25,568 bases of DNA from a virus. This document shows positions 705-25,020 of the stretch, in pieces (the stretch's first letter is position 1; every line of letters starts with the position of its first letter). The notes under the pieces are model-generated. The model was not told where the DNA came from. It worked only from the letters and a program-made list of their open reading frames with translations, and ran no database searches. Made by a program: the position numbers and the translations under genes. The stretch spans positions 1 through 25,568 of the IMG/VR virus record IMGVR_UViG_3300042401_000120. One strand, written 5' to 3'.

Positions 705-707
705 GTT

Positions 708-746
708 AAAGTGTGATTTAGCGCACTTTATCGTACTTAAAAGTGC
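708..746 (+). promoter_or_regulatory. Mutually exclusive hairpins after the terminase gene
   Basis: AAAGTG at 708-713 can pair with CACTTT at 724-729. The same central arm, GCACTTT at 723-729, can instead pair with AAAGTGC at 740-746, a perfect 7-bp stem with a 10-nt loop. The two stems share one arm and exclude each other, as in attenuators. There is no long T-tract, so a simple intrinsic terminator is not obvious. A role in transcript processing or termination after TerL is inference. Confidence 0.4.
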
Positions 747-760
747 TTTATGACGGATAT

Positions 761-778
761 TGCATACTATAGTATGCA
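761..778. repeat. Perfect 18-bp palindrome
   Basis: TGCATACTATAGTATGCA equals its own reverse complement over all 18 bases. It lies 57 bp after the terminase stop in the gene-free interval. A palindrome without a loop is more typical of a binding site for a dimeric protein than of an RNA hairpin. The binding partner is unknown. Confidence 0.6.
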
Positions 779-781
779 TTC

Positions 782-860
782 TTAGTATACCCTAAAGGGG
801 CAATTAAGGGCAATTAGGGAGTACTCCCTGTGTTTTCTATCCCTATAGGGTATAAACTAA
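782..860. repeat. Long inverted repeat with nested palindrome
   Basis: The arms TATACCCTAAAGGG (786-799) and CCCTATAGGGTATA (841-854) pair at 13 of 14 positions. Outside them TTAG (782-785) and CTAA (857-860) extend the stem across a 2-nt bulge. The loop contains a near-direct repeat (CAATTAAGGG, CAATTAGGG at 801-819) and a perfect 14-bp palindrome AGGGAGTACTCCCT at 816-829. The whole could form a cruciform or a branched RNA. Candidate roles are an origin, a terminase recognition or cleavage site, or an operator; the sequence does not choose between them. Confidence 0.6.
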
Positions 861-862
861 AA

Positions 863-886
863 TAGCCCTGCACGTTTGCAAGGCTA
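863..886 (-). terminator. Hairpin with T-tract on the minus strand
   Basis: TAGCCCTGCA (863-872) and TGCAAGGCTA (877-886) pair at 9 of 10 positions around a CGTT loop. On the minus strand the stem is followed by TTTTAGTTT, which fits an intrinsic terminator. On the plus strand there is no T-tract. No minus-strand gene is seen in this window, so the element may belong to an unrecognised antisense transcript or to the structured region as a whole. Confidence 0.45.
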
Positions 887-954
887 CTTCAGAAATCAAT
901 AATCACTTGCTAAACCAAAAGCAAATTAATGAGCTAAAGATATAGCGCTTAATG

Positions 955-978
955 CTATGTGAATAACTATGTGAATAA
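955..978. repeat. 12-bp perfect tandem repeat
   Basis: CTATGTGAATAA occurs twice head to tail with no spacer (955-966 and 967-978). It lies just upstream of the promoter for the nuclease-sigma operon, a position suited to an activator or repressor binding pair. An iteron-like role is also possible, but two copies are few. Confidence 0.6.
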
Positions 979-982
979 GATG

Positions 983-1014
983 TTGAAAGAGACTAAGTTA
1001 ATAGGTTAATTTTG
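983..1014 (+). promoter_or_regulatory. Bacteroidota-type promoter for the nuclease-sigma operon
   Basis: TTG at 983-985, a 21-bp spacer and TAATTTTG at 1007-1014 match the Bacteroidota primary-sigma consensus (TTG/TTTG, 17-23 bp, TAnnTTTG). Only four bases separate the -7 box from the ATG at 1019, so the transcript would be leaderless or nearly so. Confidence 0.6.
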
Positions 1015-1018
1015 AATC

Positions 1019-2568: not shown

Positions 2569-2604
2569 TTTTCCACAATAGTGAGTGTAATTAATTTACA
2601 TTTC

Positions 2605-2612
2605 TATATTTG
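2605..2612 (+). promoter_or_regulatory. Bacteroidota -7 box (TATATTTG)
   Basis: TATATTTG matches TAnnTTTG exactly. A convincing -33 TTTG is not seen at 17-23 bp upstream, so the promoter is incomplete by eye. Transcription would begin around 2617-2620. Confidence 0.45.
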
Positions 2613-2616
2613 TCTC

Positions 2617-2706
2617 ATGCGCAAGATTACTGTTAAGATATTCGATTTAAGGTTTAATAATTCCCCTCTGAACGGGCGCATACGTTCTTTGGGGTTTTAT
2701 TGTTTT
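2617..2706 (+). ncRNA. Candidate ~90-nt small RNA between promoter and terminator
   Basis: The interval runs from the expected start of the 2605-2612 promoter to the T-tract of a strong terminator and contains no convincing gene. A 32-codon frame (2617-2715) does exist in it, beginning four bases after the -7 box, but it reads through the terminator stem. A short non-coding transcript fits better than a protein. No known RNA family was recognised. Confidence 0.3.
2663..2706 (+). terminator. Intrinsic terminator
   Basis: CCCC (2663-2666) pairs with GGGG (2691-2694) and GAACG (2670-2674) with CGTTC (2683-2687). A 3x3 internal loop separates the two stems, the terminal loop is 8 nt, and TTTTATTGTTTT follows. 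AATAA upstream can extend pairing into the T-tract. It ends the nuclease-sigma operon and/or a short RNA from the 2605 promoter. Confidence 0.7.
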
Positions 2707-2836
2707 AAGATATGAAAGCAGTACTATTCCTGAGTAAGTCAAAGCTCAGTAACCAAAGACTAAACTTGCATCACATCAATGCTTGGAACGAGCAACTGCT
2801 CTTATTGAGCGTGAACGTTTGTTTTTCTTGGGGGAG

Positions 2837-2892
2837 CTTTTTCTTTTCTTTCTTTTTCTTTTTACCTTTTTTCTTTTTCTTTCTTTTCTTTT
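2837..2892 (+). repeat. 56-nt T-rich pyrimidine tract
   Basis: All bases are T or C except one A at 2864, giving runs of 27 and 28 pyrimidines made of CTTT/CTTTT units. This is far from the base pattern of the surrounding genes. Such tracts can form triplex DNA, stall polymerases or bind single-strand proteins. A frame through the tract would code for a poly-Phe tail and is not considered a gene. Confidence 0.7.
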
Positions 2893-2898
2893 GTTGAT

Positions 2899-2984
2899 GT
2901 TAATTAACTATAGCTATAGCTTAGCTAATAAGCTAACTGCTTTAAGCTAATAGCTAAATCTAATTACACTAATAGTTATAACTA
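2899..2984. repeat. Cluster of short AT-rich palindromes
   Basis: Directly after the pyrimidine tract lie GTTAATTAAC (2899-2908), CTATAGCTATAG (2908-2919), the hairpin TTAGCT-AATA-AGCTAA (2921-2936), AGCTAATAGCT (2945-2955) and TAGTTATAACTA (2973-2984). Most are perfect, and several share AGCT. The 108 bp up to the next ATG hold no gene. The cluster could be an operator array or an easily melted origin element. Confidence 0.5.
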
Positions 2985-3000
2985 ATAAAGATTAATATAA

Positions 3001-3150
3001 ATGAGTGATAATAACTATAACTTTTTGAAGGCTCAAGTAAAGATGTTTAACCCTAACTGGAGTGAGGCACAAGTAGATAAGGAATGTGAAAGAATACTAA
3101 ATGCAGGTGAAGGTGGAGAGGATGAGGCTTGCCTTTATTGTGGATCTTAA
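3001..3150 (+). CDS. Small protein with C-terminal CxxC, unknown function
   Basis: A 49-residue frame from ATG 3001 to TAA 3150. The protein begins MSDNNYNFLKAQVKMF, is amphipathic and helical in the middle (WSEAQVDKECERIL), then has an acidic Gly/Glu stretch and ends ACLYCGS. The final CxxC could bind metal or be redox active, but three Cys in total is few for a zinc site in a monomer. The start is preceded by A-rich sequence (AATATAA), as in other genes here. It is the first gene after the palindrome cluster and is followed by a 9-bp gap to the next gene. Confidence 0.6.
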   Translation: MSDNNYNFLKAQVKMFNPNWSEAQVDKECERILNAGEGGEDEACLYCGS

Positions 3151-3159
3151 ATAACTAAT

Positions 3160-22954: not shown

Positions 22955-22986
22955 TATATTAGCAACTTAATTAAATAATCAATATC

Positions 22987-23217
22987 ATGAATAAACCAAA
23001 CAACATAACCGGTAAGGTTATAGTCTCGAGGTGGGATGCCTCTACACTAAAGTGGAATCTGTACACAAATGCTCACAGCTATTCCCTGCAAGATTTTTCC
23101 AACGCTAAAAAGCATGGCGAAGTAATGCCTGAAGATGGTACTTTCTTATTCCAGTTTGAAAGCGAGTGCGAAGAGAATATACATGATTATTTTCTATCTG
23201 ATGTGTATGCTATCTGA
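22987..23217 (+). CDS. Unknown small early protein
   Basis: A 76-residue soluble protein, beta-rich at the start (ITGKVIVSRWDASTLKWNLY) and acidic at the end (FQFESECEENIHDYFLSD). No domain is recognised. The leader is A/T-rich (AATAATCAATATC). It overlaps the next gene by 17 bp. Confidence 0.55.
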   Translation: MNKPNNITGKVIVSRWDASTLKWNLYTNAHSYSLQDFSNAKKHGEVMPEDGTFLFQFESECEENIHDYFLSDVYAI

Positions 23218-23975: not shown

Positions 23976-24180
23976 GCTTACTCCATTTCACGCATGGGTG
24001 CGCAGTCATTTTATGACTGTGGCCCACTTTGCGGAGGTGCTTGAGGTAAGCTACCCTACAGCTCAGAAATACATTAAGCAGCCTCGCACTATGAAGGTAA
24101 CGCACATAGGCAAGCTTGCTAATATCACTGAGGAAGAGATACCATACATTTTAGAACTAATGAAAGACAGTAAACCATGA
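23959..24180 (+). CDS. Small helix-turn-helix DNA-binding protein
   Basis: A 73-residue protein. The start is placed at ATG 23959, inside the end of the SSB-like gene; ATG 23944 adds five residues. Residues about 15-50 form a Cro/CI-type helix-turn-helix (FMTVAHFAEVLEVSYPTAQK, then YIKQPRTMKVTHIGKLANIT). A short C-terminal helix follows. It probably acts as a transcription regulator of early genes. It ends in an ATGA overlap with the DnaA-like gene, so the two proteins are made together. Confidence 0.65.
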   Translation: MKCHSKLTPFHAWVRSHFMTVAHFAEVLEVSYPTAQKYIKQPRTMKVTHIGKLANITEEEIPYILELMKDSKP

Positions 24181-24662
24181 GCCAATTAGAGAGAAAGATA
24201 GCAGATTTAATTCTGCTTATACCATCGGAACAGCAGCAATTTGCACGTAGAAGAATTGATAATCTTGTGAGAGCTGTAATAGAGACACCTATACCGGAGC
24301 TCAAATGGCAAACAATAAATGGAGAGATAGAATCTTTAAACGAGCAGCGTGTTAATACCATGATGAAAGTAGTTTGTAATTTAACTCATGCAGATTGGAG
24401 CGAACTTAAGGGCAAATCTCGCAAGCGTGATATTAATGATATCAGGCAAACGTCTATGTGGATTCTACGTAAGGGAACTTCTCTAAGCTTTGCTAATATC
24501 GGAGCTATATTCAATAGACACCATGCTACTGTACTGCACGCTGTGGATTCAGTTAACAATATGATTCAAACCGATCGCATGTATAGAGGCCATGTAGAAC
24601 AGATTCTAAATCACCTGGATAACGAAAATCTGAATAAGGCTTTCAATAAATTAACAGATTAG
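24177..24662 (+). CDS. Stand-alone DnaA domain IV-like protein
   Basis: A 161-residue protein. Residues about 73-145 match the DNA-binding domain IV of the bacterial initiator DnaA: KSRKRDINDIRQTSMWILRK, then LSFANIGAIFNRHHATVLHA followed by V. The RHHATVLHAV segment corresponds to the DnaA signature (DHTTVLHA). No Walker A/B or other AAA+ motif is present, and the N-terminal 70 residues are helical and unlike DnaA domain III. It could bind DnaA-box-like sites in the phage origin, recruit or block the host initiator, or act as a regulator. It follows SSB and HTH genes, fitting a replication role. Confidence 0.82.
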   Translation: MSQLERKIADLILLIPSEQQQFARRRIDNLVRAVIETPIPELKWQTINGEIESLNEQRVNTMMKVVCNLTHADWSELKGKSRKRDINDIRQTSMWILRKGTSLSFANIGAIFNRHHATVLHAVDSVNNMIQTDRMYRGHVEQILNHLDNENLNKAFNKLTD

Positions 24663-24672
24663 TATATCTTTG
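24641..24672 (+). promoter_or_regulatory. Putative Bacteroidota promoter
   Basis: TATCTTTG at 24665-24672 matches TAnnTTTG. TTTC at 24641-24644, 20 bp upstream, is one base off the -33 TTTG. The promoter overlaps the 3' end of the DnaA-like gene and would give a leader of about 20 bases for the ATG at 24697. Confidence 0.45.
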
Positions 24673-24696
24673 TATAAATTAATAATCTTAAACCAA

Positions 24697-25020
24697 ATGA
24701 CAACGATTCTTTTAAAGCGCATAGAAGCGCTCGAAGAGAGGGTAAAGGCGCTTGAATCTAAGCGCTCTACCTCTACCAAATTCACTCCCCCATCACTTGC
24801 CGATGTAGTCGGTTACTTAGAAGATTTAGTTTTAGCTAAGAAATTCTACTGCCATTACGAAAGTAACGGTTGGAAAGTAGGTAAAAACTCCATGAAGAGC
24901 TGGAGAGCAGCCGCAGATCAGTGGAGAGCAAGAGAGAATAACAATAAAAACACTACACAAGATGAGCAAAGAATTGGCCGCATCAGTACTTCAGAGCTTC
25001 AATCGTTCACTAAGCGCTGA
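24697..25020 (+). CDS. Replication-region protein with SNGWKVGK motif
   Basis: A 107-residue protein. The start is ATG 24697; a TTG at 24670 in the same frame falls in the promoter and is not used. An N-terminal coiled coil (LLKRIEALEERVKALESKR) precedes a compact helical domain: DVVGYLEDLVLAKKFYCHY, then ESNGWKVGKNSMKSWRAAAD with QWRAR. The Y.SNGW.VG...MKSW.AA...W pattern is familiar from phage replication proteins and from C-termini of primosome/DnaD-like proteins. A role in replication initiation is therefore likely, but no activity is shown. The tail is polar. It overlaps the last gene by 59 bp. Confidence 0.65.
   Translation: MTTILLKRIEALEERVKALESKRSTSTKFTPPSLADVVGYLEDLVLAKKFYCHYESNGWKVGKNSMKSWRAAADQWRARENNNKNTTQDEQRIGRISTSELQSFTKR

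Follow-up and report, generated by a model that had tools for sequence, protein, structure and literature searches.

A predicted small RNA gene on the minus strand of the terminase-nuclease gap in a family of Bacteroidota-type phages

Between the large terminase gene (TerL) and the nuclease-sigma operon of the phage contig analysed here lies a gap of 314 b, made of two different parts: a variable one on the 5' side (positions 705-855) and a constant one on the 3' side (856-1018, ~163 b). We consider it fairly probable that the constant part is the gene of a trans-acting antisense small RNA (sRNA), encoded on the minus strand and acting on early genes. As predicted from promoter box, structure, covariation and fold, the gene (853-930, minus strand) would yield an RNA of ~75 nt, with its 5' end near 930-928 and its 3' end in a T tract at 863-853. 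It would be a previously unlisted gene of a family of Bacteroidota-type phages, running against the direction of all phage genes, and its product is probably an RNA switch for turning down early genes.

The whole stretch of DNA, called the window below, is a contig of 25.6 kb with promoters of Bacteroidota type. Among named phages, Flavobacterium phage 11b has the TerL closest to that of the window (48% amino-acid identity); its layout is different, with the portal gene directly behind TerL. Searching viral contigs with a TerL fragment retrieved 80 close relatives, 94-98% identical; the TerL search of bacterial genomes gave zero relatives. The gap comparison covers 71 full gaps, 62 of them distinct and 160-560 b long, and genome-wide counts refer to 20 records, that is, 19 long relatives and the window. 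These phages are closely related, so that all such counts overstate independence. Terminal repeats, of 127 b in three of the 19 long relatives and of 55 b in one, make it probable that these four, of 29-31 kb, represent complete circular maps. G005 and G011 were annotated in full, and all their predicted genes lie on the plus strand round the circle. The order is TerL, the gap, a VRR nuclease, an ECF-like sigma factor and further genes, then small terminase (TerS), structural and lysis genes, followed by early genes and a DnaA domain-IV protein before TerL is reached again. Several peculiarities of these records are worth noting in their own right. Three TerL genes (L206:5001-6425, L211:5001-6425 and L027:399-1823) have a zinc-ribbon-like insert of 36 aa with two CxxC pairs, placed after RIRYKLN in the ATPase domain and missing from the other aligned relatives. 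G002 (L116, L117; 38.5 kb) has a ~1020-aa tail gene in two copies and the L159 contig extends over 61,462 b, about two genome lengths; both are possibly chimeric or multimeric assemblies. G011 (rotated coordinates 24195-24467) has, just behind the gene of an SSB-like protein, a 90-aa ORF in which the C-terminal part of that protein recurs, resembling a local duplication. A second long gap of the window (2569-3159), of widely differing length among relatives, has a TTTTCCACA at its start and contains a polypyrimidine tract of ~65 nt (~2830-2895).

An earlier note on this DNA had described the gap as richer in dyad symmetry than chance would allow. This holds for perfect stems of 7 bp or more, loops being at most 12, where four are observed for 0.43 expected and none of 500 shuffles reaches four, and the gap has the highest dyad count among 506 sliding windows of 314 b; the excess is weaker for stems of at least 6 bp (4 for 1.5 expected, a count reached by 35 of 500 shuffles). 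The individual features listed in that note were all recovered. On the plus strand, dyad analysis places two alternative hairpins at 707-746, mutually exclusive because 707-730 and 723-746 use one common arm. A perfect 18-bp palindrome, TGCATACTATAGTATGCA, occupies 761-778 and a perfect 14-bp one, AGGGAGTACTCCCT, 816-829, inside a long inverted repeat (782-860) whose best arms, 786-799 and 841-854, match at 13 of 14 positions. The hairpin at 863-886 is indeed followed on the minus strand by a T tract, TTTTAGTTT; the perfect 12-bp tandem repeat stands at 955-978, and the promoter at 983-1014 fits the Bacteroidota type (TTG-N21-TAATTTTG). Selection on the dyads, which the note suspected and for which it proposed a comparison with relatives, is supported by compensatory changes in two hairpins, named J and K below. 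Two further features came to light: the tandem repeat consists of two DnaA boxes, and the constant part looks like a minus-strand transcription unit.

A probable minus-strand transcription unit

Of 60 distinct constant regions, 58 share a minus-strand -7 box, TAnnTTTG, which is always in the same position and has no second match in the region; that of the window, TATCTTTA (935-942), deviates by one mismatch. This predicted promoter has no TTG at -33, and a DnaA box sits in that place. Downstream of the -7 box come, in order, hairpin K (905-926; loop UUUGGUUU at 919-912, stem covarying), an almost invariant unpaired linker, hairpin J (857-892; core 863-886, loop AACG) and finally TTTTAGTTT or TTTTGTT. 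The linker, UGAUUAUUGAUU in the window (894-905), would be the second part of the seed, and has a 13-nt form in other relatives. Hairpin J scores as a minus-strand intrinsic terminator in 71 of 71 gaps and, together with the T tract, would end the sRNA. Transcription would thus start at ~930 and proceed leftward through K, the linker and J. As far as can be judged from sequence, the unit has its own promoter and its own intrinsic terminator, and it contains no ORF.

Structure is conserved on the strand presumed to be transcribed, as seen in covariation, in G-U asymmetry and in the fold. Hairpin J exists in 12 sequence variants, all of which keep a stem of 11 pairs; these variants display 113 Watson-Crick pairs and 18 pairs that are G-U on the minus strand, with none of the plus-strand G-U type. 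Because G-U pairs appear on the minus strand only, the structured molecule should be a minus-strand RNA. Aligning 17 relatives shows all 17 pairs intact in every cell (100%), and covariation is higher than in all 500 shuffles, and far higher than in slid controls, while the predicted sRNA of the window folds at z -5.8. A plus-strand RNA, or a 5'-UTR element of the nuclease operon, was considered and rejected: J and K precede the promoter of that operon, and their C-A mismatches on the plus strand are G-U pairs on the minus strand.

A covariance model built on this structure finds exactly one confident copy per genome in all 19 long relatives and in the window, with E values from 1e-21 to 9e-5. 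The same model gave no convincing match on 80 bacterial contigs, a pattern scan of bacterial genomes gave matches at chance level only, and no Rfam family reaches its gathering threshold for the sRNA.

DnaA boxes between two predicted promoters

The two DnaA boxes, TTATTCACA at 966-958 and 978-970 (958-978, minus strand), separate the predicted sRNA promoter from the promoter that drives the nuclease-sigma operon in the opposite direction, and they are the only two occurrences of TTATNCACA in the window. In all 60 cases the proximal box precedes the sRNA -7 box by 14-15 nt, at the position of a -33 element; the distal one alternates between TTATTCACA and TTGTTAACA in relatives. On the plus strand, the nuclease-sigma promoter (983-1014, TTG...TAATTTTG) carries TAATTTTG in 71 of 71 gaps, only 4-5 nt ahead of the nuclease ATG (1007-1019 in the window, with the ATG at 1019), which makes it probable that the mRNA is leaderless.

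A candidate binder of these boxes is encoded by the phage itself, at 24177-24662 (plus strand) and in 19 of 19 relatives: a protein limited to domain IV of DnaA, with a Bac_DnaA_C domain (E 8e-18) and resemblance to the DnaA domain IV structure 3pvp (E 1e-6). Its recognition helix comes in two forms among relatives, RHHATVLHA and RDHSTILYA. We infer that this protein binds the boxes, and the sign of its effect is likewise a matter of inference. Host DnaA or the phage protein might set the balance of the two promoters and, in so doing, tie the early-to-late switch to replication, a weaker part of the proposed mechanism.

The same elements could speak of replication more directly. DnaA boxes, AT-rich DNA and hairpins may form the phage origin, with the RNA or the hairpins serving initiation or priming, and the families matched by the proteins scanned include no polymerase, helicase or primase; the constant presence of the DnaA domain-IV protein fits as well. 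Yet for the origin that the earlier note had offered, the boxes (at least one TTATNCACA in 71 of 71 gaps) are the sole point in favour, and with two in the window and one or two in relatives they may be few for an initiator-box cluster. There is no change in GC skew at the gap in the four end-repeat genomes, the hairpin block is missing in some relatives, and the G-U pairs of J and K, confined to one strand, are of the RNA type. We regard an origin as unlikely to be the explanation of the gap. An origin and an sRNA can coexist, to be sure, by analogy with lambda, whose pO/oop neighbours the origin and has DnaA-protected boxes nearby (PMC3985674).

Predicted targets and the variable island

The complement of the two unpaired segments of the predicted sRNA, AATCAATAATCA then AAACCAAA, is present at early-gene start codons in 20 of 20 records. 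With the gap masked and at most three mismatches allowed, the bipartite motif has 58 matches outside the gap, all of them on the plus strand; 54 of the 58 are in the early region and 46 lie between -45 and +25 relative to a start codon. Permuting the letters gives motifs with a mean of 5.8 matches and a maximum of 29, none of 200 reaching the observed start-codon count. Complementarity to the translation starts of unlinked genes is beyond chance. Motif pairs in reverse order also occur, 14 times. Duplex energy, which alone does not separate these sites from random windows, was dropped as a target screen.

Three genes recur as predicted targets. In the window, a site at 22969-23000 (plus strand) covers the start of T1 (76 aa, ATG 22987) and another, at 24677-24699 (plus strand), that of T3 (107 aa, ATG 24697), just downstream of the -7 box of T3 itself (24665-24672). 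The third, T2 (115-161 aa), adjoins the DnaA-like gene in relatives; the window yielded no T2. T3 shows a weak similarity to the C-terminal region of a DnaD-like helicase loader (phrog_8489, E 0.007) and a stronger one to phrog_15768 (E 3e-14), a family whose function is unknown; T1 and T2 gave no convincing family match. The K loop, UUUGGUUU, and the linker, UGAUUA(U)UUGAUU, would pair with AATCAATAATCA...AAACCAAA sites overlapping the start codons, and this pairing would lower translation or stability of several early genes. Repression is proposed because the sites sit over start codons; activation is the alternative.

The linker exists in a 12-nt and a 13-nt form, and the T2 sites follow. 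The 13-nt type of T2 site is found in six of six distinct pairs with a 13-nt linker vs one of 21 with a 12-nt linker (Fisher 2e-5); one of those 21 pairs (L280) is a chance pattern match, and dropping it changes little. Well-supported branches of the T2 protein tree imply at least three changes of linker form, and in 29 of 30 rows the site carries the form that goes with the linker. L224/G001 departs from the rule. This coevolution of seed and target is seen at T2 only, and not at T1 or T3.

In the variable part of the gap, behind the TerL stop codon (705-855, plus strand), the comparison of gaps reveals a cassette-like island that ranges from 0 to ~390 b in relatives and is missing in about one fifth of them, built of interchangeable hairpin cassettes gained and lost between relatives. 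It folds better than shuffles (z -4.9). Across 48 variable parts, terminator-like hairpins number 29 on the plus strand for 2.1 expected, and 11 on the minus strand for 1.75 expected. On the plus strand, GC-containing stems are followed by T-rich tails, albeit weak ones, and 20 of the 48 variable parts score. Those of the window are two palindromes already flagged by the earlier note, at 761-778 (18 bp, perfect, tail TTCTTAGTAT) and 815-830 (tail TGTTTTCTAT). A mobile element was rejected, as no cassette turned up at any other place in the window or the 19 genomes. The island would mainly serve as a set of exchangeable plus-strand terminators that end early-operon transcription behind the terminase gene. 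Read-through transcripts could pair with the sRNA and titrate it, and the terminators would prevent this. No other step of the mechanism is as weak, given that only 20 of 48 variable parts score and that the island is absent from so many relatives.

The enrichment in plus-strand terminators would also suit a gap of ordinary signals, with tandem terminators of the early operon, a late promoter and no regulatory RNA, the start-site motif being a translation enhancer or operator that also occurs here by chance. The target sites are A-rich, and A-rich start regions are normal in Flavobacterium (PMC6847099). We find this account improbable: it leaves unexplained the minus-strand promoter and terminator, the covariation restricted to one strand, and the complement of the motif lying in a loop and a linker. 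A shared enhancer or operator does not predict the covariation between linker and T2 site, which it leaves unexplained too. A packaging (pac/cos) site or structural terminase mark, suggested by the position adjoining TerL, is scarcely credible, as the palindromic block is missing in about one fifth of the relatives or quite different in content despite TerL being 94-98% identical, and the small-terminase gene is ~2.5 kb away. Of the three functions proposed in the earlier note, the control switch fits; the origin has the DnaA boxes alone in its favour, and the packaging site has no support.

The sRNA that we favour may belong to a wider circuit. It is possible, though we hold it as tentative, that the DnaA domain-IV protein or host DnaA turns on, from the tandem boxes, both the sRNA that silences several early genes at once, T3 among them, and the nuclease-sigma late operon, with fast-exchanged terminator cassettes insulating the sRNA from sponge transcripts. 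If true, this replication-coupled switch would represent a new family of RNAs in Bacteroidota phages, visibly coevolving with its target.

Comparison with known systems

To our knowledge, most of the phage regulatory RNAs described so far come from a small number of enterobacterial and Vibrio phages. If the present prediction is true, Bacteroidota-type phages would add a compact, sequence-defined sRNA with a predicted regulon, seed-target coevolution and a possible link to DnaA. Direct predictions follow: an RNA of 75 nt should be made, and swapping the linker should alter target choice. The covariance model can be used to find further copies.

"Bacteroid-" has no match in the text of a review of phage regulatory RNAs (PMC12197685). 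The same review deals with P22 sar, P1 c4 and VP882 VpdS, which are also phage-encoded base-pairing RNAs controlling phage genes. No sequence or Rfam relation to these three was found, and the predicted sRNA would stand apart from them by its two-part seed, a hairpin loop and a linker, meeting several early start sites. Lambda OOP RNA is likewise a short phage counter-transcript with its own terminator, beside replication genes and with DnaA boxes near its promoter (PMC3985674). However, OOP is cis-antisense to cII, overlapping its target on the other strand, whereas the predicted sRNA is intergenic and its predicted targets are several genes located several kb away; its DnaA boxes, furthermore, are upstream of the promoter. 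The phage DnaA domain-IV protein is like DnaA in its Bac_DnaA_C domain and in boxes that fit TTATNCACA; it differs in having no AAA+ domain and in its presumed use at a divergent promoter pair. Finally, both promoters of the gap share the -7 element of the Bacteroidota primary promoter (TTG...TAnnTTTG), and that of the predicted sRNA departs from it in that a DnaA box replaces the -33 element.
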